NCBI RefSeq assembly: GCF_019008365.1
Contig: NZ_JAHHUL010000026.1
Coordinates: 1-50,459 of the forward strand
DNA: 50,459 nt
Direction: 5' to 3'
Origin: Phosphitispora fastidiosa
Lineage (GTDB): Bacteria > Bacillota > Thermincolia > Thermincolales > UBA2595
A program made the translations under genes and the position numbers. Of this stretch, positions 12,099 to 50,459 are shown in pieces. The first letter of the stretch is position 1. Every line of letters begins with the position of its first letter. Below the pieces are notes generated by a model. It was not told the origin of the DNA. It saw only the letters and a list, made by a program, of their open reading frames with translations, and made no database searches.

Positions 12099-14801
12099 AT
12101 GGCTGACAACGTAACCCTTACCATAAACGGCCGGAAGGTGACGGTCCAGGCGGGGATAACCGTACTGGAAGCTGCCCAGCAGACTGGGATAGATATCCCG
12201 ACCTTCTGTCATGACCCTGAGCTGTCCAAGCCAGGGGCCTGCCGGATATGTGTGGTTGAAATAAAGGGCTGGCGCAATCTTCCGCCTTCATGTGTAACCG
12301 CGGTTACTGAAGGCATGGAAGTGGAAACAGAATCAACAGCCGTAGTGGAAGCCCGGCGGACCATCCTGGACCTGCTCCTGGCTAACCATCCGCAGGACTG
12401 TATGACCTGCCAGAAGTTCGGGGACTGCCGGCTGGCTGATTATGCATACAGGTATGGGCTGAGAAAGACTACTTTTATTGGAGAACAAACCAATGTGCCG
12501 GTTGACGAATCCAGCGTGGTAATCACCAGGGATGTTAATAAGTGCATTCTCTGCGGCAAATGTGTCCGTGTCTGTGCTGAGATAGTGGGCCGTAATGTGG
12601 TTGATTTTGTTTCCCGCGGTTTTACTACAATAGTAAGCCCGGCCCTTGAAATGGGACTGGGTGAGAAGGAAGCCGGCTGTGTGAACTGCGGCAGTTGTGT
12701 TGCTGTTTGTCCGGTCGGGGCTCTGACTGAGAAGAACATGCAGGGTATCGCCCGCCCATGGGAAGTGGAAAAGGTCAAGACAACCTGTCCATACTGCGGC
12801 TGTGGCTGCAACTTTGATCTTAATGTTAAAGACGGAAAGGTTGTGGGTGTAACCTCCAACCCGACCAGTGCAGTCAATGGCCGGCATCTTTGTGTCAAAG
12901 GCCGTTTCGGCTATGACTTTATCCACAGTTCTGACCGCCTGACACTGCCGCTGATCAAAAAAGGCGGCAAAGATGGCGATTTTGTTGAGGTTTCCTGGGA
13001 TGAAGCCATCAGGTATGTGGCTTCCAGGCTGAAAGAAATCAAGGAGGAAAATGGCAGTGAAGCTATAGGGATACTCAGTTCCGCCCGCTGCACCAATGAG
13101 GAAAACTACCTCATGAACAAGCTGGCACGGGTGGCTTTGGGTACCAACAACATAGACCACTGCGCGCGTCTCTGACACTCCGCTACTGTTGCCGGTCTGG
13201 CAACTTCATTTGGGAGTGGCGCAATGACTAATTCCATTGGAGAAATCAGTGAATGTGATTATCTCTTTGTAATCGGTTCGAATACCACTGAGACCCACCC
13301 CATAATTAGCCTTGAAATGAGAAAAGCTGTCAGTCGTGGGGCCAAACTGGTGGTAGTTGACCCGAGAAAAACTGAGATAGCTGAACTTGCCGATGTGCAT
13401 GTTCCCCTGAGACCGGGGGCCAACATTCCGCTGCTTAATACGATGTGTAATGTAATCATTGCCGAAGGACTGTATGACAAGGAATTTGTGGCCAACCGCA
13501 CCGAAGGCTTTGAAGAACTGAAGTTAGCTGTGGAAAACTTTACCCCGGAGAATTATGCCGGTATCATTGGTGTTCCGGCAGAAACTATCAGGGAAATTGC
13601 CCGCGGCTATGCCAAGGCGGGCAGTGCGGCAATCTTCTATACGATGGGGATTACCCAGCATACTTCCGGTACCAATAACGTCCTGGCTGTCGCTAACCTG
13701 GCAATGCTGACAGGTCAAATAGGCAAACCCAGCAGCGGCGTGAACCCCCTCAGGGGCCAGAACAACGTTCAGGGCGCTTGCGATATGGGGGCGCTGCCAA
13801 ATGTGTTCCCCGGATACCAGGGGGTTGCTGTTCCGGAGAATGTTGAAAAATTTACCAAGGCGTGGGGCGTTCCTCAGTCCGCTAAAGCTGGTCTTACTGT
13901 TGGTGAGATGATGGATGCAGCCCACCATGGTGACATGAAAGCAATGTATATCCTTGGTGAGAACCCTATGCTCAGTGACCCGGATATCACTCACGTCCAG
14001 CAGGCTCTGGAAAATCTGGAATTCCTGGTTGTCCAGGATATCTTCCTGACAGAAACCGCCATGCTGGCTGATGTGGTCCTGCCTGGAGCCAGTTTTGCCG
14101 AGAAAGACGGTACCTTTTCCAATACCGAGCGCCGGGTGCAGCGTGTGCGCAAAGCAATTGAGCCACTGGCCGGCAAGGCTGACTGGGAGGTTATCTCAGA
14201 AGTCCTTACTGCATTGGGATATCCCCATGAGTATGGCAGCGCCTCTGAGATATTTGATGAGGCTGCCGGAGTTACCCCGCAGTATGCTGGTATCTCCTAT
14301 GCCCGCCTTGAGGAAAAAGGCATCCAGTGGCCGTGCCCCAATACGGAGCATCCGGGGACCATTTACCTTCATGATGGTAAATTCTCCCGCGGTCTGGGCA
14401 AGTTTACCGGGGTAGACTTTGAACCTCCGGCAGAGCTGCCGGATGCGGAGTACCCGTTTGTACTCAACACCGGACGCCGCCTGTATCATTATCATACAGG
14501 TACGATGACCCGCCGGACCAAAGGGCTGAATACCATCTATAGCGAGGAATTTATCGAAATAAATCCTGCAGATGCATGCAAACTGGGCATCAGTGACGGT
14601 GAACTGGTTAAAGTCAGTTCCCGCCGCGGTTCGATTAGCGTTAAGGCCCAGGTTACCGATATGGTCCAGCAGGGTATGGTATTTACTTCATTCCACTTCG
14701 CTGAAGCTCCGGTCAATTTCCTGACAAATTCGGCGCGTGATTCTATTTGCAAGATACCTGAACTGAAGGTAGCAGCTGTTAAGGTGGAAAAAGTGAGCTA
14801 A
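12099..14801 (+). CDS. fdhA: Formate dehydrogenase catalytic subunit, selenoprotein
   Basis: One 900-residue frame once the in-frame TGA at 13173-13175 (codon 359) is read as selenocysteine: the context DHCARL-U-HSATVAGLA is the formate dehydrogenase active site, and the frame continues unbroken on both sides. Domains in order: [2Fe-2S] (Cys37, 48, 51, 65), NuoG-type His/Cys cluster, two [4Fe-4S] motifs, Fe4S4 lid (CPYCGCGCNF), molybdopterin domains, and a C-terminal dinucleotide-binding domain (NTGRRLYHYHTGTMTRR). It oxidises formate or reduces CO2 with a Mo/W bis-pterin cofactor. Together with the upstream diaphorase genes this is a cytoplasmic NAD(P)-linked, possibly electron-bifurcating, complex. 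AGGAGG precedes the ATG. Confidence 0.95.
13173..13218 (+). promoter_or_regulatory. Bacterial SECIS element in fdhA
   Basis: Right after the TGA, CACTCC (13176-13181) pairs with GGAGTG (13213-13218), and GTTGCC (13188-13193) pairs with GGCAAC (13199-13204) around a GGTCT loop. The GGUCU apical loop is the same as in the well-studied E. coli fdhF SECIS, which SelB recognises. This supports selenocysteine insertion rather than a nonsense mutation. Confidence 0.9.
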
Positions 14802-19043: not shown

Positions 19044-20453
19044 ATGGATAATAAACAGAATTTGTTAAGAAAACTTCCGGCAATAAATATAATCCTGGAA
19101 CAGGCCAGAATTAAGCAGCTCGAATCCCGCTGTCCGCATACCCTGATTTCTGAAGCTGCTTCAGAAACGGTCCAGGGTATCAGGGAAGCTATTCTGGCGG
19201 GAGATGAGACACCGGATACAATAACCGATTTGGACACAATTGCTGCCGTTGTGGCAAAAAAGGTTCAGGAAAAGATCAGCCCAAATCTGAGGAAGGTCAT
19301 AAATGCAACCGGTATTGTATTACACACCAATTTGGGCCGCGCGGTCCTTGCCGGTTCAGCAGTTAAAGCTATTAATGATGTGGCTGCCAATTATTCCAAT
19401 CTTGAGCTGGACCTGAACACAGGCGAACGGGGGACACGGTATTCACATATCGAGAAGCTGCTGTGCCGGCTGACCGGGGCTGAAGCAGGAATGACAGTAA
19501 ATAATAACGCCGCTGCGGTGCTGCTGGTGTTAAACACACTGGCCAAGGACCGGGAAGTTATTGTCTCCCGGGGCCAGTTGGTGGAGATTGGCGGTTCTTT
19601 CCGAATCCCGGATGTTATGTCACAGAGCGGCGCTCTCTTGGTGGAGGTTGGCACTACTAACAAGACCCATTTACGGGATTATGAAAGCGCCGTCACTGAA
19701 GATACTGCGCTGCTGTTAAAGGTACATACCAGTAATTATAAGGTGATCGGTTTTACGGCTGAGGTGTCAGCCGGGGAATTGACAGGCTTGGGCAGGAAAA
19801 AGGGTATTGCTGTATATGAAGACTTGGGCAGCGGAGTCCTGGTTGACTTTATGAAATATGGTATCACACATGAGCCTACTGTTAATGAGAGTATCAAAGC
19901 AGGTGTGGATATTGTGACCTTTAGCGGGGATAAGCTTTTCGGCGGACCCCAGGCAGGCATTATAGTAGGTAAGAAATATATTATCGACAAAATAAGGCAA
20001 AACCCGCTTACCAGGGCTCTCAGGGTGGACAAGTTTACCCTGGCTGCCATGGAGGCAACACTGCGCCTGTACTTTGAAGAGGAGACGGCAGTTGCCGAGA
20101 TACCCACCCTGAGGATGATTATGATGCCGTCTGAGGAAATACGGTTAAGGGCGGAGAAGCTGCAGGGCCTGCTGCGGGAGAAAACAGGAGACAGCATCGA
20201 AACAGAGATAACGGCAGGTTTTTCTCAGGTAGGCGGGGGCGCTCTGCCGGAAGAAAATCTCCCGACATTTCTTGTTTCCGTCAGGCCTCTGTCTATGAGT
20301 GTGAACAAGTTGGAAAAAAGGCTTCGGGAGATGGAACCTCCCATTCTAGCCAGGATCCAGAAAGACCGGCTGTTATTTGACCCAAGGACACTGCTTGCCA
20401 ATGACTGTGAAGTTATTGCCATAAACCTGCAGAGAATCATGGAAACGGGGTGA
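19044..20453 (+). CDS. selA: L-seryl-tRNA(Sec) selenium transferase
   Basis: 469 aa PLP enzyme that turns Ser-tRNA(Sec) into Sec-tRNA(Sec) using selenophosphate. Clear family features: INATGIVLHTNLGRA, the GERGTRY segment, NNNAAAVLL, and the PLP lysine in FSGDKLFGGPQAG. Length is normal. selD follows, its start four bases beyond this gene's stop, so the pair is co-translated. Its presence agrees with the selenoproteins FdhA and SelD in this window; selB and the tRNA(Sec) gene are not here. Confidence 0.96.
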   Translation: MDNKQNLLRKLPAINIILEQARIKQLESRCPHTLISEAASETVQGIREAILAGDETPDTITDLDTIAAVVAKKVQEKISPNLRKVINATGIVLHTNLGRAVLAGSAVKAINDVAANYSNLELDLNTGERGTRYSHIEKLLCRLTGAEAGMTVNNNAAAVLLVLNTLAKDREVIVSRGQLVEIGGSFRIPDVMSQSGALLVEVGTTNKTHLRDYESAVTEDTALLLKVHTSNYKVIGFTAEVSAGELTGLGRKKGIAVYEDLGSGVLVDFMKYGITHEPTVNESIKAGVDIVTFSGDKLFGGPQAGIIVGKKYIIDKIRQNPLTRALRVDKFTLAAMEATLRLYFEEETAVAEIPTLRMIMMPSEEIRLRAEKLQGLLREKTGDSIETEITAGFSQVGGGALPEENLPTFLVSVRPLSMSVNKLEKRLREMEPPILARIQKDRLLFDPRTLLANDCEVIAINLQRIMETG

Positions 20454-20457
20454 GGAT

Positions 20458-21516
20458 TTGACGGAAGCTAAGACAGCACATACACTGACATCGCTTTCAT
20501 GCAAAGCCGGCTGAGCGGCCAAAATAGGTCCGGAGGACCTTGCCGAGGTACTCAGTCTGCTGCCGCCATCCCTGCCTGACCCGAATCTGTTGGTGGGACT
20601 GAATACCAATGACGATGCCGGGGTTTACCGGCTTAATGAGGATACAGCCCTAATCCAGACCGTGGATTTTTTCACCCCAGTTGTTGATGATCCGTATCTG
20701 TTCGGACAGATTGCGGCAGCAAATTCACTAAGTGATGTTTATGCCATGGGGGGGAGACCCCTTACGGCTATGAATATTATCTGCTTTCCTACCGGCAAAC
20801 TGGAACTTGCGGTACTTGCCGAGATTTTAAAAGGGGGGGCTGATAAGGTCAGGGAAGCCGGGGCTGTACTTGTAGGCGGCCATTCTGTAGAGGACGATGA
20901 ACCAAAATACGGCTTGTCGGTTACCGGAGTTGTTCACCCGGACAGGGTGATGGCAAACTCCGGAGCCAAACCGGGTGATGCCCTGGTATTAACCAAACCT
21001 CTGGGAATAGGGATTATTACTACGGCCATTAAAGGTGGTCTGGCTACTGCCGATGAGATTGAGGCTGTCTGCCGGGTAATGTCTGCCCTCAACAGGGAAG
21101 CTGCTGAGGCTATGCAGGAAGTTGGCGCTAACGGATGTACCGATATTACCGGTTTTGGACTGCTGGGCCATGCCTCTGAGATGGCGCGGGGCAGTGATGC
21201 AGCAATCAGCATATATGCATCCCGTGTTCCAGTCCTGGAACCGGCTTACGGATATGCAAAAATGGGTATAGTTCCCGCAGGCACAAGGGCGAATCTCAAA
21301 TATATCAGACAGTTTGTTGATTTTGAGCCGGAAATTGACGAGACTCAGCAATTGATACTTGCTGATGCGATAACATCAGGAGGACTGTTAATTTCCCTTC
21401 CCGGGGAGAAGGTTTCCCTGCTGACAGAAAACCTGCACCGCAGAGGCATTAAAGAGGCTGTAATAATTGGTGAGGTTACCGGGGCCGGCGGAGGCCGGAT
21501 TACCGTGAAACCGTAA
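20458..21516 (+). CDS. selD: Selenophosphate synthetase, itself a selenoprotein
   Basis: 352 aa if TTG 20458 is the start (GGTGAGG just upstream, inside the end of selA) and TGA at 20512-20514 is codon 19, selenocysteine. The context SLSCKAG-U-AAKIGPEDL fits the SelD active site, where Cys or Sec is followed three residues later by the catalytic Lys (here Lys22). Downstream are the ATP/Mg residues NTNDDAGVY and GGHSVEDDEPKYG. The enzyme makes selenophosphate from selenide and ATP. If read without Sec, only an N-truncated protein from 20590 would result, lacking the active site. Confidence 0.93.
20512..20544 (+). promoter_or_regulatory. SECIS-like hairpin in selD
   Basis: Following the TGA, AGGTCC (20526-20531) pairs with GGACCT (20535-20540) around GGA, with GGC/GCC as a possible outer extension. 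The distance from the codon (11 bases) is typical of a bacterial SECIS. Confidence 0.75.
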
Positions 21517-26241: not shown

Positions 26242-26270
26242 TTGCGAAAATCGAATAAAAAAGGTATAAT
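26242..26270 (+). promoter_or_regulatory. Sigma-A promoter of the Moco operon
   Basis: TTGCGA (26242-26247), 17-base spacer, TATAAT (26265-26270). It starts a leader transcript that runs into the structured element below. Confidence 0.7.
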
Positions 26271-26289
26271 ATGAAAATAAGAAGATAAT

Positions 26290-26412
26290 AACTCCGAGTT
26301 GGCATGGCCTAAGACCTTCGGGTACGGCCCGTCAACCGTTGCCGGGTAACCGGCAAAGGGTATCGCAGGAAACTGTGATGCCTCCCGTATTTGGAAAGGA
26401 GATGAATGCTGT
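26290..26412 (+). promoter_or_regulatory. Riboswitch-like leader, probably Moco type
   Basis: Compact folded leader: ACTCC near 26291 can pair with GGAG at 26398; inside are a GACC-TTCG-GGT hairpin, GCCGG-GTAA-CCGGC (26341-26354) and CGCAG-GAAA-CTGTG (26364-26377), two of them with GNRA tetraloops. The segments GCCTCCC and GGAAAGGAGATGA resemble my recollection of the conserved parts of the Moco (molybdenum cofactor) RNA motif, and the genes downstream make that cofactor. A terminator follows immediately. The identity of the ligand is an inference from context. Confidence 0.6.
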
Positions 26413-26416
26413 CACG

Positions 26417-26441
26417 ACACCCCTTTCCCAGGGGTGTTTTT
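26417..26441 (+). terminator. Intrinsic terminator of the Moco leader
   Basis: ACACCCCT pairs with AGGGGTGT around TTCCC, followed by TTTT. It lies between the folded leader and the first gene, as expected for control by transcription attenuation. Confidence 0.88.
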
Positions 26442-26470
26442 GCGCATATATATGTTTTTTACAATCAGCA

Positions 26471-26571
26471 GGCTCTGGAAATGACTCATTTGCAGCTAGA
26501 CTCATAACGGCGGCGGTGCAAGGAAAACCTTATACAATACCTCACCATATTTCGCGGTCATTACCAGAGCC
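26471..26571. repeat. 101-bp MITE-like repeat in Moco leader
   Basis: Ends are 15-bp inverted repeats (GGCTCTGGAAATGAC and, reversed, GGCTCTGGTAATGAC). The interior, from GACTCATAACGGCGG to CCTCACCATATT, matches the right arm of the 360-bp palindrome at 14891-15250, so it is a short family member. Confidence 0.75.
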
Positions 26572-26664
26572 TAAGTTAAGAAAAGAACATAAAGTATAAG
26601 CGCAAAACCTTGAATTAAAAGGAAATCGTATTTCCAAAAGACTTAACAAAGGGAGGTAATAGAG

Positions 26665-26844
26665 ATGGACAAAATTCCTGATAAGGTTTTGGAAGCGGTA
26701 AAAGAAGCGGCTCCGGAGGGCAGGATAAGCTGTGCTGCTGCCCATGAGTTAGCAAAAAGGCTGGATGTGGAATTGCTCATGATAGGAAAAGCGGCTGATG
26801 AGCTGAAGATTAAAATAAAAAGCTGCCAGCTGGGGTGTTTCTAG
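26665..26844 (+). CDS. Small conserved-looking protein upstream of moeA, 59 aa
   Basis: ATG with GGGAGG eight bases upstream. The product begins MDKIPDKVLEAVKEAAPEGR, continues with a helix-turn-helix-like stretch ISCAAAHELAKRLDVE and ends KSCQLGCF. Codon use looks like that of a real gene and the moeA start follows after 35 bases. I know no named family with certainty. The helical pattern suggests a tiny winged-helix-like protein; the C-terminal CxxxC could bind metal or be redox-active. Confidence 0.7.
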   Translation: MDKIPDKVLEAVKEAAPEGRISCAAAHELAKRLDVELLMIGKAADELKIKIKSCQLGCF

Positions 26845-26879
26845 CATAAAGCCAAGCTTTTTAAATAATGGAGGTTCCA

Positions 26880-28118
26880 ATGACTGAACTCTTTAAACTT
26901 ACAAGTGTGGCCGAAGCCTGGAAGGCATTTAGGAATAATATCTCCCTCAACGAACCGGCTGAGGAACAGGTGTCTGTTCTCGATTCCCTTGGCAGGGTTC
27001 TGTCCCGGGATATTGTTTCCGGGATTGATGTTCCGGGCTTCACTCGTTCCACCATGGATGGTTTTGCTGTCAGGGCCGCCGATACCTTTGGAGCTGCTGA
27101 AGCTATGCCTGCCATGCTGGAGGTTTCCGGTGAGGTTATGATGGGGGAAGCAGCCCGGACCGGTCTGGAACCCGGGCACGCAGTGAGGATAGCAACCGGA
27201 GGAATGCTGCCAGATGGCGCTGATGCTGTTGTTATGGTGGAATACACCGAAGAACTGGACAGTGCGACTATCTTGGTCGTGCGGCCCGTTGCACCGGGAG
27301 AGAATGTGGTTCAAAAGGGAGAGGACATCAGAGAAGGTCAGGTTCTGGTAAAAGCCGGGACTGTTATCAGGCCTCAGGAAATGGGCGGGCTGGCCGGCAT
27401 CGGGATTGTATCCTGCCATGTTGCCCGCAAACCGCGGGTAGGCATTTTGTCAACCGGTGACGAGATTGTGGAACCTGATAGGACACCGGGCCCCGGACAG
27501 GTCAGGGATATTAATTCATACGCTATTGCCGGACTCGTGACTGAGGCCGGTGGACAGGCGATAAACTATGGCATTATCAGGGACGATTTTGCCAGCCTTG
27601 AGGAGACCGTGAAAAAGGCGGTAGCAGAAACCGATATTGTTGTTGTCTCTGGGGGCAGCTCAGTAGGGACCAGGGATGTTACTTCCCGGGTGCTTGATAC
27701 CATTGGCAAACCGGGTGTCCTGGTTCACGGCGTCTCGGTGAAACCGGGTAAACCGACCATCCTTGGGGTGGTCAATAATAGGCCGGTTCTGGGACTGCCC
27801 GGTCATCCTGCTTCAGCAATGGTTTTAGCCGATATATTCCTGGTTCCTCTGGTGAGAGCCTTGCTGGGCCTGGATTTTACCTCCCCGGAACGCAGGACGG
27901 TGCGGGCCCTGATGGGCAGGAGTATGGCTTCAGCCAGCGGACGGCTGGACTATATCAGGGTGGCCCTGAAAGACGAAAACGGGGGGCTTAGAGCTGAGCC
28001 TGTTCTGGGTAAATCGGGCCTGATAATGACAATGGTTAAGGCTGATGGGGTAGTGATTGTTCCTATGGCTAAAGAAGGGCTCGAAACTGGAGAAGAGGTA
28101 AAGGTAATTCTGTTTTAA
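26880..28118 (+). CDS. moeA: Molybdopterin molybdenumtransferase MoeA
   Basis: 412 aa from ATG 26880, five bases after GGAGG (an in-frame ATG at 26868 lies before the ribosome binding site). Family motifs: STMDGFAVRA, GGMLPDGADAVVMVE, GENVVQKGEDI, LSTGDEIVEP, VSGGSSVGTRD and VKPGKPTILG. MoeA inserts molybdate (or tungstate) into adenylated molybdopterin. First large gene of the cofactor operon, followed by a second MoeA-type gene. Confidence 0.95.
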   Translation: MTELFKLTSVAEAWKAFRNNISLNEPAEEQVSVLDSLGRVLSRDIVSGIDVPGFTRSTMDGFAVRAADTFGAAEAMPAMLEVSGEVMMGEAARTGLEPGHAVRIATGGMLPDGADAVVMVEYTEELDSATILVVRPVAPGENVVQKGEDIREGQVLVKAGTVIRPQEMGGLAGIGIVSCHVARKPRVGILSTGDEIVEPDRTPGPGQVRDINSYAIAGLVTEAGGQAINYGIIRDDFASLEETVKKAVAETDIVVVSGGSSVGTRDVTSRVLDTIGKPGVLVHGVSVKPGKPTILGVVNNRPVLGLPGHPASAMVLADIFLVPLVRALLGLDFTSPERRTVRALMGRSMASASGRLDYIRVALKDENGGLRAEPVLGKSGLIMTMVKADGVVIVPMAKEGLETGEEVKVILF

Positions 28119-28155: not shown

Positions 28156-30096
28156 TTGGTGAAAATATTGGTGAAACGAAATGTCTATTTGGATAATACT
28201 CCTCTGGAGGAGGCTGTTGGCAAGTACTCAGAGAGGCTCAGTGAATTGGACGCCCTGAAACCGCTGCCCGGTGAACTTATAGCTGTGGATGAGGCCCAGG
28301 GGCGCGTCACTGCTGAGCCGGTCTTTGCACAGGTATCATCACCTCACTACCATGCCTGTGCTATGGATGGGATGGCAGTAAAGGCTGAAAATACATTTAA
28401 GGCTGGCGAAACCAACCCTGTAAGGCTCAAGGTTGGTTCAAGGGCATTTCCGGTGGACACCGGGGATCCGCTGCCCGAAGGCTGTGATGCCGTGATTATG
28501 ATTGAACAGGTGCATTTTGCTGCTGACGGTGAAATCGAAATTATTGCGGCAGCAGCTCCCTGGCAGCATGTCCGGCCCCTTGGTGAGGATATTGTGGCAA
28601 CAGAAATGATTGTTCCGGCAAATCATGTACTCCGTTCTATGGATATCGGAGGGATTCTTGCCGGAGGGGTGACTGAAGTTAAGGTCCACAGGCAGCCGGT
28701 GGTTACCGTAATGCCTACCGGGACTGAGTTGGTTCAACCAGGGACAGACCTGAAAAAAGGAGATATCATAGAGTATAATTCCAGGATCATCGGGGGACTG
28801 GTCCGCGAATGGGGCGGACAGGCTGTGCGGACCGCCATCAATGCTGATGAATATGATATTTTAAAAGAACAAATCCGGAATGCAGTTGAGCAGTCAGATA
28901 TAGTTGTTGTCAATGCAGGTTCCTCGGCGGGTTCGGAGGATTTCACCTCTGCAATTATAAGAGAACTGGGAGAAGTTGTGGTCCACGGGGTTGCAATAAA
29001 GCCCGGTAAACCTGTCGTACTCGGAGTTATTAGTGGTAAACCGGTATTGGGTATACCGGGCTACCCGGTGTCAGCAATACTTGATTGTGAGCTATTTTTA
29101 AGACCGGTAATTGCAGCAAAAGCGGGGATTTCCATAGTTGGCAGGCCGGTGATGAATGCCTCCCTGTCACGCAAGCTTGTTTCTCCCCAGGGAGTGGACG
29201 AGTTTGTCCGGGTAAAATTGGGCCGGGTTGGTGAAAAGGTGATTGCCACCCCGATTTCCCGCGGGGCAGGGGTGTTGACTTCTCTGATCAGAGCTGATGG
29301 AATCCTGAAAATCCCCAGGTTTATGGAGGGACATGATGCCGGTAGTGAAGTGGAAGTAGAACTTCTGAGGGACAAAAATGAGATTGAAAATACTATGGTT
29401 ATTATAGGCAGCCATGATGTATCTCTCGATATTCTCGGTAATTCCCTGAGGCAGATGTATCCCGGACGGAGCCTTTCTTCAGCCCATGTAGGCAGTCTTG
29501 GCGGTCTTTTGGCCTTAAGACGCGGGGAAGCACATCTGGCAGGTGTTCATCTCCTGGATGAGGCTACTGGGGAGTATAATGCTGCCTATGTGGAAAAATT
29601 ACTGGCCGGAGTTCCAGTGATACTAATCAACCTGGTATACAGGGAGCAGGGTTTTATGGTGCCCCGCGGGAACCCGCGCAGTGTGCGCAGCTTTGTTGAC
29701 CTGGCACGGCCCAATATGAGGTTTATCAACCGGCAGAAGGGCGCGGGAACCAGAATCCTGCTGGATTATTACCTGAAAAAAGAGGGGGTTGACCCTGAGG
29801 ATATCGAAGGATACGACAGGGAGGATTACACCCATATGGCTGTTGCCGCAGCCGTTGCCGGGGGCAGCGCTGACGTCGGACTCGGCATAAGGGCTGCCGC
29901 CAATGCCCTGAAGCTGGATTTTGTTCCGGTAACCGAGGAGAGGTATGACTTGGTTATTCCACAGGCACACTGGGATACCGATCATATCAAAAGTCTGCTG
30001 GGTGTCCTCAATGACCCCGATTTCCGGACTGCAGTGGAGGGCCTGGGCGGATACAGCACCCGAGCCATGGGGCAGGAGGTTTATCGGAGAGACTAA
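28156..30096 (+). CDS. MoeA fused to PBP-like domain
   Basis: Up to 646 aa. Residues ~10-410 repeat the MoeA fold (CAMDGMAVKAENT, LPEGCDAVIMIEQ, MPTGTELVQPG, NAGSSAGSED, KPGKPVVLG). Residues ~420-646 are a periplasmic-binding-protein-like domain (IIGSHDVSLDILG, INRQKGAGTRILLDYY, GGSADVGLGIRAAA) as found in molybdate-responsive regulators and in MoeA-LysR-type fusions of clostridia. It may sense oxyanion or cofactor load. Such second MoeA proteins are common where both Mo and W enzymes are made. The real start may be the GTG at 28171, giving MKRNVYLDNTPL. Confidence 0.92.
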   Translation: MVKILVKRNVYLDNTPLEEAVGKYSERLSELDALKPLPGELIAVDEAQGRVTAEPVFAQVSSPHYHACAMDGMAVKAENTFKAGETNPVRLKVGSRAFPVDTGDPLPEGCDAVIMIEQVHFAADGEIEIIAAAAPWQHVRPLGEDIVATEMIVPANHVLRSMDIGGILAGGVTEVKVHRQPVVTVMPTGTELVQPGTDLKKGDIIEYNSRIIGGLVREWGGQAVRTAINADEYDILKEQIRNAVEQSDIVVVNAGSSAGSEDFTSAIIRELGEVVVHGVAIKPGKPVVLGVISGKPVLGIPGYPVSAILDCELFLRPVIAAKAGISIVGRPVMNASLSRKLVSPQGVDEFVRVKLGRVGEKVIATPISRGAGVLTSLIRADGILKIPRFMEGHDAGSEVEVELLRDKNEIENTMVIIGSHDVSLDILGNSLRQMYPGRSLSSAHVGSLGGLLALRRGEAHLAGVHLLDEATGEYNAAYVEKLLAGVPVILINLVYREQGFMVPRGNPRSVRSFVDLARPNMRFINRQKGAGTRILLDYYLKKEGVDPEDIEGYDREDYTHMAVAAAVAGGSADVGLGIRAAANALKLDFVPVTEERYDLVIPQAHWDTDHIKSLLGVLNDPDFRTAVEGLGGYSTRAMGQEVYRRD

Positions 30097-31205: not shown

Positions 31206-31709
31206 TTGAGTGAAATGACCCATTTTAATAAGGATGGACGGGCCAGGATGGTAGATGTGACTGCTAAAAATGACACCATACGGGTTGCGGTTGCCAGAGG
31301 GGAAGTCAGAATGAAACCGGAAACCCTGAAGGCTGTCAGGGAAGGCGGGATTGCCAAGGGTGATGTCCTGGCGGTGGCTCAGGTCGCCGGGATTTTGGCT
31401 GCCAAAAAGACAGGTGACCTCATTCCTATGTGTCACCCGCTGTTTATAACAGGAGCAGATTTGAAGTTTAGACCTGATGAAGCCGGGTCCAGGGTAGAGA
31501 TTCAGGCCACGGTCCGGACAACCGGCAAAACGGGTGTGGAAATGGAGGCCTTGACTGCGGTCTCTGTGGCTGGGCTGACCATTTACGATATGTGTAAAGC
31601 CATAGATAAGGATATGGTGATTGGAGCGGTCAGGCTGGTGGAAAAAACCGGTGGTAAAAGCGGCCGGTATGGAAGGGAAGGAGAAGAGAAATGGGTGGAA
31701 AAATTATAG
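31206..31709 (+). CDS. moaC: Cyclic pyranopterin monophosphate synthase MoaC
   Basis: 167 aa with the active-site stretches [23 protein letters not shown] and the conserved [10 protein letters not shown]. Works right after MoaA to form cyclic pyranopterin monophosphate. Start is the TTG at 31206 or ATG 31215. Overlaps the next gene by 19 bases. Confidence 0.95.
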
Positions 31710-32125
31710 CTGTCTGTACCAGTGAAAAAAAGGGCATGCGGAAAAAGAATATCGGTGAGGGAATATTAAGACCTGACCACGGGCTTGAGGGTGATGCCCA
31801 TGCAGGGGACTGGCACCGCCAGGTAAGCCTGCTGGCTTTAGAAAGCATCGAGAAAATGCGGGCTAAGGGATTGGATGTAAATCCCGGTGACTTTGCTGAA
31901 AATCTTACCACAGAGGGGCTGGTTCTGGTTGACCTGCCTGTGGGGACAAAACTCAGGATTGGCAGTGAGGCCCTGGGGGAGGTCACTCAGATTGGCAAGG
32001 TGTGCCATGACAGGTGTGCCATCTATTACCAGGCAGGTGATTGTGTAATGCCCAAGGAAGGGATTTTCATCAAGGTTCTCACGGGAGGCCTGGTAAAAGT
32101 TGGAGATGCCGTGGAGTTAGCATAA
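31691..32125 (+). CDS. MOSC-domain protein
   Basis: 144 aa; [49 protein letters not shown] and a Cys near 104 are typical of stand-alone MOSC proteins, which bind sulfur or selenium and molybdopterin-type ligands. It sits inside the cofactor operon and may add sulfur to the cofactor or to a Mo enzyme. GGAAGGAGAAG precedes the ATG inside moaC. Confidence 0.92.
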
Positions 32126-32140
32126 CAGGGGGGATTGTTT

Positions 32141-32629
32141 ATGTATAAAGTGGGAATTATCACAGCCAGTGACAAAGGCAGCCGGGGTGAGCGGGAAGAT
32201 ATCAGCGCCGGTGTGATCCGGGAAGAAGTTGCCAGAATAAACGGAGAGGTCCTGGAATACATAGTAGTCCCAGATGAATGTGAAACAATAAAGGATAAAC
32301 TGATTGAATTTGCTGATGTAAAAAAACTTGATCTTATATTTACCACCGGGGGAACCGGGTTCAGCCCCAGAGATGTTACCCCTGAGGCAACTCTTACGGT
32401 TGTTGACCGGATGGTTCCGGGAATACCTGAACTAATGCGCCGGGAGGGGTACAAGGTAACTCCAAGAGCTGTTCTCTCAAGGGCCGCAGCCGGAATCAGA
32501 AAACAGACTCTGATCATAAATCTTCCCGGCAGTCCCAAGGCTGTACGGGAAAACCTGGGATGGATCCTGGAGTGCTTGCCCCATGGTTTGGATATACTCA
32601 AGGGGACAGATTCGGAGTGTGCCCGGTAG
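32141..32629 (+). CDS. mogA: Molybdopterin adenylyltransferase (MogA/MoaB)
   Basis: 162 aa from ATG 32141 with GGGGGG eight bases upstream. The MoCF fold is shown by GIITASDKGSRGERED, FTTGGTGFSPRDVTPEAT and NLPGSPKAV. It adenylates molybdopterin before MoeA inserts the metal. Last gene of the operon; moaD, moaE and moeB are not in this window. Confidence 0.93.
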   Translation: MYKVGIITASDKGSRGEREDISAGVIREEVARINGEVLEYIVVPDECETIKDKLIEFADVKKLDLIFTTGGTGFSPRDVTPEATLTVVDRMVPGIPELMRREGYKVTPRAVLSRAAAGIRKQTLIINLPGSPKAVRENLGWILECLPHGLDILKGTDSECAR

Positions 32630-49241: not shown

Positions 49242-50459
49242 GTTCGTCCGGCATGTGTACCGGGCCGATGGGTTGAAAGAAACCCTATCACCTAACCAGC
49301 GGGAAGATAACCCGTAAGCAAGGGCGTCACTGGCTAACGGTGTGGTCTGAAGGAAGCTGAAGGGGGAGTCTGGAACATAGCGGAAGTGAACCGAGGTTGG
49401 CTCTCCAGATGGGTAACCCTGCAAGAAATGGGAAAGCCCGAAAGCTGGAAAATCTGGGGAGTTAGGACGGATGGGTTCAGACTCAGGCAAGTACATTTAA
49501 CCGGAGAAGCCCGGCATCATCCCTCAGTGAAGGGTAGGCTCGAACAAGTGGAAACACAAGGGAGAGGCGAAGTGGTGTGGGGTGGCAGATGAGTACGTAG
49601 TAGTGATAAACTCCCGGCCTGCGAAAGCTGGCAACAGACTGGAGGACAAAACCGGGAGGACACTGCATTCAATTGCAGTGGGGTACAACCAGCCAAAAGC
49701 AGTTGTACTTGCGAAGGGACGAAGGTAAATCAAAGTATGCAACTAAGGAACAGAGCGATGGGACAAGAAGATAACTGAGGATGAAAGGCCGAAGGGAACG
49801 GCCCAATCGGGGGTGACGAACCTGCTGAAGGGTGCGTCCGCTTAGTCAGAGTAAGGTGACAGGAAAGGTAAGATTGCCAGAGAGCTAGAGACGCCTGGAG
49901 AGTTACAAGAAGGAACTGACGCGAAATCGTGAAGAACCGTGGAAGCATACGGCATAAATTTGCAAGAGGAACTAAACCGACTTCATCACCAACTGAAAAC
50001 CGGCATTTACGAACCAGACCCAGTGTTAAGAGTGGAAATACCAAAAGCTGACGGAACTAAACGTCCGCTTGGAATACCCACTGTAAGAGACCGAATAGTT
50101 CAGCAAGCTCTTCTTAACATTCTACAACCTATCTTTGAACCCGACTTTCATCCATCAAGCTATGGATACAGACCGGGACGCTCCTGTCATCAGGCAGTGG
50201 CAAAGGCGGAAATGTTCATAAACAAATATGGCCTATGCCATGTAGTGGATATGGACCTGTCCAAATGCTTTGACCGGCTGGACCATGAATTAATCTTAAA
50301 GGGAATTAACCGAAAAATTAGTGCCGGCAGTATCTTGAAGCTAGTCAAGAAGTTCTTGACAGCGGGAGTAATGAAAGACGGGGTGTGGGAGGAAACAGAC
50401 CTTGGAAGCCCTCAGGGGGGAGTCATTTCTCCATTAATTTCCAATATTTACCTAGATGA
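49242..50459 (+). mobile_element. Group II intron, 5' part, runs off window
   Basis: Starts GTTCGTCCGGCATG, which resembles the GUGYG 5' end of bacterial group II introns, right after a transcription terminator. The next 690 bases are the ribozyme domains (for example GTGTGGTCTGAAGGAAGCTG), with no gene; the short frames there are noise. A reverse transcriptase gene follows. Domains V and VI and the 3' end lie beyond the window. Confidence 0.92.
49939..50459 (+). CDS. ltrA: Group II intron RT/maturase, N-terminal part
   Basis: Partial: 173 codons to the window end. From GTG 49939 it reads VEAYGINLQEELNRLHHQLK, then VEIPKADGTKRPLGIPTVRD, SSYGYRPGRSCHQAVAKAE, HVVDMDLSKCFDRLDHELIL and LGSPQGGVISPLISNIYLD, i.e. 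reverse transcriptase blocks 0 to 4; the YADD block is outside. Upstream in the same frame a TGA at 49930-49932 interrupts a homologous-looking stretch (GTDAKS-stop-RTVEAYG), so the usual N-terminus seems to be lost or mutated. The intron may no longer be mobile on its own. Confidence 0.88.
   Translation, partial: MEAYGINLQEELNRLHHQLKTGIYEPDPVLRVEIPKADGTKRPLGIPTVRDRIVQQALLNILQPIFEPDFHPSSYGYRPGRSCHQAVAKAEMFINKYGLCHVVDMDLSKCFDRLDHELILKGINRKISAGSILKLVKKFLTAGVMKDGVWEETDLGSPQGGVISPLISNIYLD

Follow-up and report, generated by a model that had tools for sequence, protein, structure and literature searches.

RNAs of the Rfam family RF01055 (Moco/tungsten riboswitch) have been known since 2008 (Regulski et al. 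2008, PMC2408646). According to the part of that paper accessible here, the P3-containing RNAs of the 2008 survey were tied only to MPT/Moco genes, the P3 copy of E. coli did not respond to tungstate, and the rule was proposed that P3 goes with Moco and its absence with the tungsten cofactor (Tuco, or WCo). Tungsten-cofactor binding by a P3-less RNA was never directly shown there; direct binding could not be tested. The available passages of two reviews mention Moco and WCo only in general terms.

The window analyzed here (the whole stretch of Phosphitispora fastidiosa DNA, 50,459 nt) holds an ordinary P3-containing member of this family, for which we predict ligand-OFF control, and the same genome carries a second member of different build. 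What is new is the companion, as a variant of a known family; the window element itself is a further RF01055 member.

The window leader and its operon

The initial annotation, made from the letters alone, had described an RNA similar to the Moco motif and proposed an Rfam search as a check. This search was clearly positive: the RF01055 covariance model matches at full length (model positions 1-135 of 135) with 78.3 bits against a gathering threshold of 36 (E 2.3e-17). By model match and fold, P1, P2, P4, P5 and the conserved junction are all present, and the UUCG and two GNRA hairpins noted at the outset fall on P2 (UUCG), P3 (GUAA) and P4 (GAAA), the GAAA loop occurring together with the receptor CCUAAG..UACGG in P2. 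The element sits upstream of Moco/MPT biosynthesis genes. Compared with the P3-containing Moco RNA of PMC2408646, as far as that source is accessible, it has the same P1-P5, the same GAAA loop plus receptor, the same P3, the same biosynthesis-operon context and a terminator-type platform. There is no essential difference; the downstream repeat is inserted.

Table 1. Features of the leader and the genes that follow it, in window positions
Feature	Position	Strand	Basis or remark
Promoter-like hexamers TTGCGA-17-TATAAT, sigma-70-like	26242..26270	+	consensus scan
Moco riboswitch aptamer, P3-containing subtype	26280..26417	+	RF01055 match
P1 5' strand (CUCC), partner 26398-26401	26292..26295	+	covariance model and fold
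P2, tetraloop-receptor-like CCUAAG/UACGG, UUCG tip 26317-26320	26298..26336	+	covariance model and fold
P3 hairpin, 7 pairs, GUAA loop 26346-26349	26339..26356	+	covariance model and fold
P4 hairpin, GAAA tetraloop 26369-26372	26358..26383	+	covariance model and fold
GGAAAGGAG, P5/P1 3' strand; 26393-26399 pairs with 26422-26428 in predicted antiterminator	26393..26401	+	minimum-energy fold
Intrinsic terminator, stem 26416-26438, U-run 26437-26441	26416..26441	+	scan and fold
Internally shortened repeat-family copy after terminator, terminal inverted arms 26470-26485 and 26557-26572	26470..26572	+	genome matches, congener comparison
orf59, 59-aa protein, unannotated family	26665..26844	+	heads Moco operons
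moeA	26868..28118	+	MoeA_N, MoCF_biosynth, MoeA_C
moeA fused to PBP-like domain (moeA-PBP)	28156..30096	+	NF011068 over cut-off
moaA	30128..31114	+	domain match
moaC	31206..31709	+	domain match
MOSC-domain protein	31691..32125	+	domain match
mogA/moaB-like	32135..32629	+	domain match

A promoter, the RNA and then an intrinsic terminator had been proposed ahead of the genes, and this order holds up in comparison with two genomes of the same genus (G001 and G002), in which aptamer, promoter and terminator have the same layout. The promoter scan found one candidate where shuffled sequences give 1.1, so that the scan on its own is no evidence; both congeners have similar hexamers in the corresponding position. 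For the terminator the count was one against 0.4 expected in shuffles, and the stem-loop ACACCCCTTTCCCAGGGGTGT is unchanged in G001 and G002.

Between terminator and first gene the initial annotation had placed a MITE-like repeat, and a multi-copy, terminally inverted family is confirmed there. The arms are of 16 bases each and 94% complementary, and the stretch has 56 matches in its own genome at E<=10, or 49 (itself included) at E<1e-3, several of these being the two arms of one element. No clear target-site duplication was seen by eye in the repeat copies compared. G001 lacks the insert, its terminator running straight into the ribosome-binding region of orf59; G002 has at the same position a full-length copy of roughly 330 bases, relative to which the window copy has lost its middle. 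The repeat is therefore a later insertion rather than part of the switch, and it looks harmless. Could it nevertheless be the repeat, and not the aptamer, that controls the operon, for instance through a second structure or promoter? Its location in the leader, shared by the G002 copy, speaks for this, but G001 carries the same aptamer and terminator without it, and dozens of further family matches lie at other places in the genome; we hold such control to be highly improbable. The family is a genus-level one with long inverted arms; full copies have about 330 bases, and many of the genome matches are inverted pairs at most about 250 bases apart.

The Moco operon that had been read after the leader is there, with moeA, moeA-PBP, moaA, moaC, a MOSC-domain gene and a mogA-like gene (Table 1). 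Its first product, orf59, has no match in Pfam or NCBIfam. Homologs found with tblastn occur in 24 of the 191 riboswitch loci collected below; all 24 are directly before Moco biosynthesis genes, and they cover 24 of the 45 riboswitch loci that precede such genes. The family is about 50-60 aa long with the pattern GRISC ... K[IL]..C.LGCF. A further observation in the window (12936-14207 and 19044-21516) concerns a PF00384 protein that resembles selenocysteine formate dehydrogenases and contains a single in-frame TGA; the ORFs downstream of it look by eye like selA and selD. A group II intron D1-D4-3 match lies near the window end (49327-49495).

A variant architecture in the same genome

The second copy in this genome (G000:C7:113979-114089) just exceeds the RF01055 gathering threshold (36.8 bits against 36) and lies 184 bases ahead of a gene for a 574-aa aldehyde ferredoxin oxidoreductase (AOR; PF01314 and PF02730). 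AORs are a tungsten enzyme family. In this copy P3 and the P2 receptor are missing, P4 carries a GCAA loop, and P5 is formed by CUGC/GCAAAGG instead of the usual CUCC/GGAAAGG, a compensated change. The same build was found in five other matches of a first survey, in which RF01055 was run on 61 related genomes and gave 102 places in 38 genomes. A model made from six such sequences was then searched against 398 genomes from the phylum, 131 of which had matches. The working set of 191 loci consists of all 102 RF01055 places plus 89 loci picked from the matches listed, in most cases for their score and short length, and is accordingly not a random sample.

We call P3-containing RNAs Type I, ordinary P3-less RNAs Type II, and P3-less, receptor-less RNAs with a GCAA/GUAA P4 loop and flipped P5 Type III. 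The set has 37 Type I, 118 Type II and 36 Type III loci, nine of the Type I/II labels having been assigned by eye. Type III was defined after viewing the sequences, by a P5 pattern (35 matches) to which G051_C28_174175 was added by hand. P3 is absent from all 36. A strict P2 receptor pattern occurs in none of them against 61/155 of the others, and a looser pattern in 12/36 against 144/155. In 59 distinct rows of Type III, P1, P2 and P4 have 94.0% of cells paired (74.2 when shuffled) and a covariation score of 0.595 (0.223 when shuffled). The P5 pairs are invariant in these rows and were fixed by the search pattern, so the evidence for P5 is the exchange of CC/GG for GC/GC from one type to the other.

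How does this build relate to what was described before? Like the P3-lacking Moco RNA (the proposed Tuco/WCo riboswitch) in the accessible part of PMC2408646, Type III has no P3 and keeps the junction CCGA..AGGG..AAAGG. Unlike that RNA it has no P2 receptor, a GYAA-type P4 loop and a G-C/C-G P5; it stands ahead of AOR/FDH operons; and the aptamer 3' strand is part of its terminator, whence a predicted ON switch. The same source already notes four GCAA-loop Moco RNAs without a receptor. These are probably Type III members; in the accessible text we found no mention of an AOR link, a P5 change, or a control direction or ON platform for them. Nor did we find a description of Type III, or a link of AOR to the Moco riboswitch, in the one open-access library searched. 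The low yield of the standard Rfam procedure (cmscan, RF01055), which recovers 4 of the 20 Type III elements tried, may explain why the type has escaped notice.

Type III might differ from the P3-less type merely in its tertiary contacts, sharing the ligand and having no role of its own. The shared junction sequence and the four receptor-less RNAs of 2008 fit this reading, and in 37 of 60 rows the GCAA/GUAA loop faces a CC:GG pair close to the tip of P2 that could replace the receptor. We regard it as possible but do not favor it, for the reasons given by gene context and control direction in the following sections.

Genes downstream of Type III

An AOR gene is among the first two ORFs downstream in 28 of 36 Type III loci, in none of 37 Type I and in 1 of 118 Type II loci (1/155 for the other types together; Fisher p 2.8e-25). 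Leaving out the six sequences of the model, the count is 23/30, and by family majority it is 10 of 15 Type III families against 0 of 44 others (p 4.8e-8), the genome G371 being taken as its own family although its family is f16. This difference in gene association counts against a mere variant in tertiary contacts. Two further Type III operons (in G029 and G072) have their AOR gene about 4.5 kb downstream. All 32 genomes with Type III have an AOR gene, as do 225 of the 398 overall. A biosynthesis gene is among the first two ORFs at 23 loci of Type I, at 22 of Type II and at none of the 36 Type III loci of the 191-locus set.

In a set of named genomes, an exact pattern search gave 104 stretches. 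Model R1 matched 60 of the first 80 of these loci and 14 of the other 24; it found nothing in the remaining pattern loci, as expected of chance pattern matches. AOR genes follow 57 of the 74 model matches (43/60 and 14/14). Eight more precede relatives of the molybdopterin oxidoreductases that are formate-dehydrogenase-like, and all five of these that were checked are formate dehydrogenases over the NCBIfam cut-off. Among the other nine, four have less than 1 kb of downstream sequence and no match, three have a ferredoxin-like gene, and one has NuoF-like and ferredoxin-like genes up to the contig end. The last, L303, is a true exception: its receptor is present, it is classed OFF, and it precedes moaC and mogA. 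The named carriers include Moorella thermoacetica, M. stamsii, M. mulderi, Clostridium ragsdalei and Sporomusa silvacetica, and also Levilinea, Bellilinea and Actinomycetota bins. By eye, about a dozen cases of the named set overlap the survey genomes, so that the two sets are not independent confirmations.

Several individual loci deviate in their arrangement. The Type III element of G320 (L155, G320:C1:1059708) precedes a sigma-54 regulator gene and has an AOR gene directly upstream. G051_C4 is a P3-less copy of canonical build before AOR. L076 (G042:C4:114082-116246) has three riboswitch copies in a span of about 2.2 kb, with a Type III element flanked by two of Type II, and the same genome has what looks by eye like a broken ferredoxin-like gene.

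Direction of control and ligand

In most Type III leaders, the 3' strand of the aptamer's P5/P1 doubles as the 5' arm of the hairpin ahead of the U-run. Aptamer and terminator, sharing this strand, exclude each other, and the ligand should therefore allow transcription (ON). The adenine riboswitch of pbuE is an ON-type transcription riboswitch in which the aptamer 3' strand is the 5' arm of the terminator; the logic is the same, while aptamer and ligand differ. In the AOR leader of the window's genome the overlapping hairpin has -21.1 kcal/mol against -1.2 for a separate one, and the leader is classed ON.

The overlap rule used for classing was loosened after it was seen that many Type III hairpins begin one base inside P1. 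Under this looser rule 25 Type III leaders are ON and 5 OFF, with 6 giving no terminator, against 24 ON, 114 OFF and 17 unclassed among the 155 of Types I and II (p 8.7e-12); the five OFF calls are all borderline, the hairpin starting one base past the limit. The stricter rule gives 15 ON, 8 OFF, 6 ambiguous, 5 without terminator and 2 unparsed for Type III, and 11 ON and 123 OFF for Types I and II, a contrast in the same direction. By family majority, 10 of 11 Type III families are ON and 3 of 43 others. This difference in control direction is a second point against Type III being a tertiary-contact variant alone. Type II elements before non-biosynthesis genes are classed OFF in 69 of 94 cases, although these genes may be users of the cofactor, for which OFF control would be odd.

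The ON prediction would be wrong if the Type III hairpin were no terminator but a processing or anti-sequestering element. The copy in the window's genome does have a poor U-run (TTCTGCTTTCC), and the six leaders without a terminator include G053 and both G051 copies. Against this, 58 of the 74 matches in named genomes are classed ON (46/60 and 12/14), whereas shuffled Type III leaders are ON in 26 of 282 cases, and we consider a hairpin of that sort quite improbable.

The window leader, classed OFF, appears to work the other way round. When ligand is scarce, GGAAAGG of the aptamer strand would pair with CCUUUCC in the growing RNA, which would block the terminator and let the operon be transcribed. 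Bound ligand would hold P1 and P5 closed and so keep the strand GGAAAGGAG occupied; the terminator could then form and transcription would end ahead of orf59 and moeA. Folding is consistent with this scheme: for the transcript ending at 26429, before the terminator 3' arm, the antiterminator is the fold of lowest energy (-56.2 kcal/mol), the aptamer alone has -53.0 kcal/mol, and aptamer plus terminator co-fold at -72.3 (26288-26455) or -72.0 kcal/mol (26288-26450). Since the strand that closes the aptamer is also the antiterminator strand, the ligand should cause termination. As a general rule for OFF leaders the antiterminator is weak, as the complement to the P1/P5 strand beats shuffles at p<=0.05 in only 20% of the 114 OFF-classed leaders (mean p 0.43), and the OFF class thus rests mainly on separate terminators. 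It is also the case, against the OFF reading, that P3-containing leaders of the same family before biosynthesis genes in G004 and G007 are classed ON.

Which form of the cofactor would the window RNA sense? The initial annotation had left this in doubt, rightly so, for P3 and gene content point in different directions. Because it carries P3, the window copy should sense Moco under the published rule (PMC2408646, accessible part). The genome has no match to ModA (TIGR01256) or to the xanthine-dehydrogenase-type molybdoenzyme domain PF02738, however, which weakens the case for Moco. It has a TupA-like substrate-binding protein (239.8 bits, below the model cut-off of 400) and three AOR matches, and in four of its five PF00384 matches there is a single in-frame TGA, such as selenocysteine formate dehydrogenases have. 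These features would suit an OFF switch responding, despite P3, to the tungsten form or to both forms. The exclusive link of P3 RNAs to MPT/Moco genes and the tungstate insensitivity of the E. coli copy argue against it, and molybdate may enter through an unrecognized transporter; we think tungsten sensing by the window copy rather unlikely. We infer ligand binding, control direction (from folding) and Moco rather than the tungsten form for this leader, and the best explanation overall, which we put forward with considerable confidence, is that it is a ligand-OFF attenuator of the Moco class and that the Type III leader before AOR in the same genome should go ON.

Both the structure of Type III and its association with particular genes are well supported; the ligand and ON direction of the type are predictions. 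We lean towards the fuller claim that Type III is a third, largely overlooked Moco/Tuco riboswitch architecture and that it senses the tungsten cofactor, serving specifically to turn on AOR and formate dehydrogenase genes, at the least within Bacillota, Chloroflexota and Actinomycetota. Six genomes examined, the window's included, pair Type III with P3-containing family members, and in that genome, G001 and G002 the P3-containing partner is OFF-classed and stands before a biosynthesis operon. Cofactor supply would then repress cofactor synthesis through the window RNA and license a tungsten enzyme through the Type III RNA, and, if this is true, one riboswitch family gives opposite outputs on synthesis and on use of the cofactor. 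The pair matters because whether and how these RNAs tell the Mo from the W cofactor has been open since 2008 (PMC2408646, accessible part). With both architectures, different targets and opposite predicted directions in one genome, a single culture on molybdate or tungstate could decide. In Clostridium autoethanogenum, ethanol formation reportedly begins with AOR (PMC12727526, accessible part); given this role, RNA control of tungsten enzymes would be of interest to gas fermentation as well.
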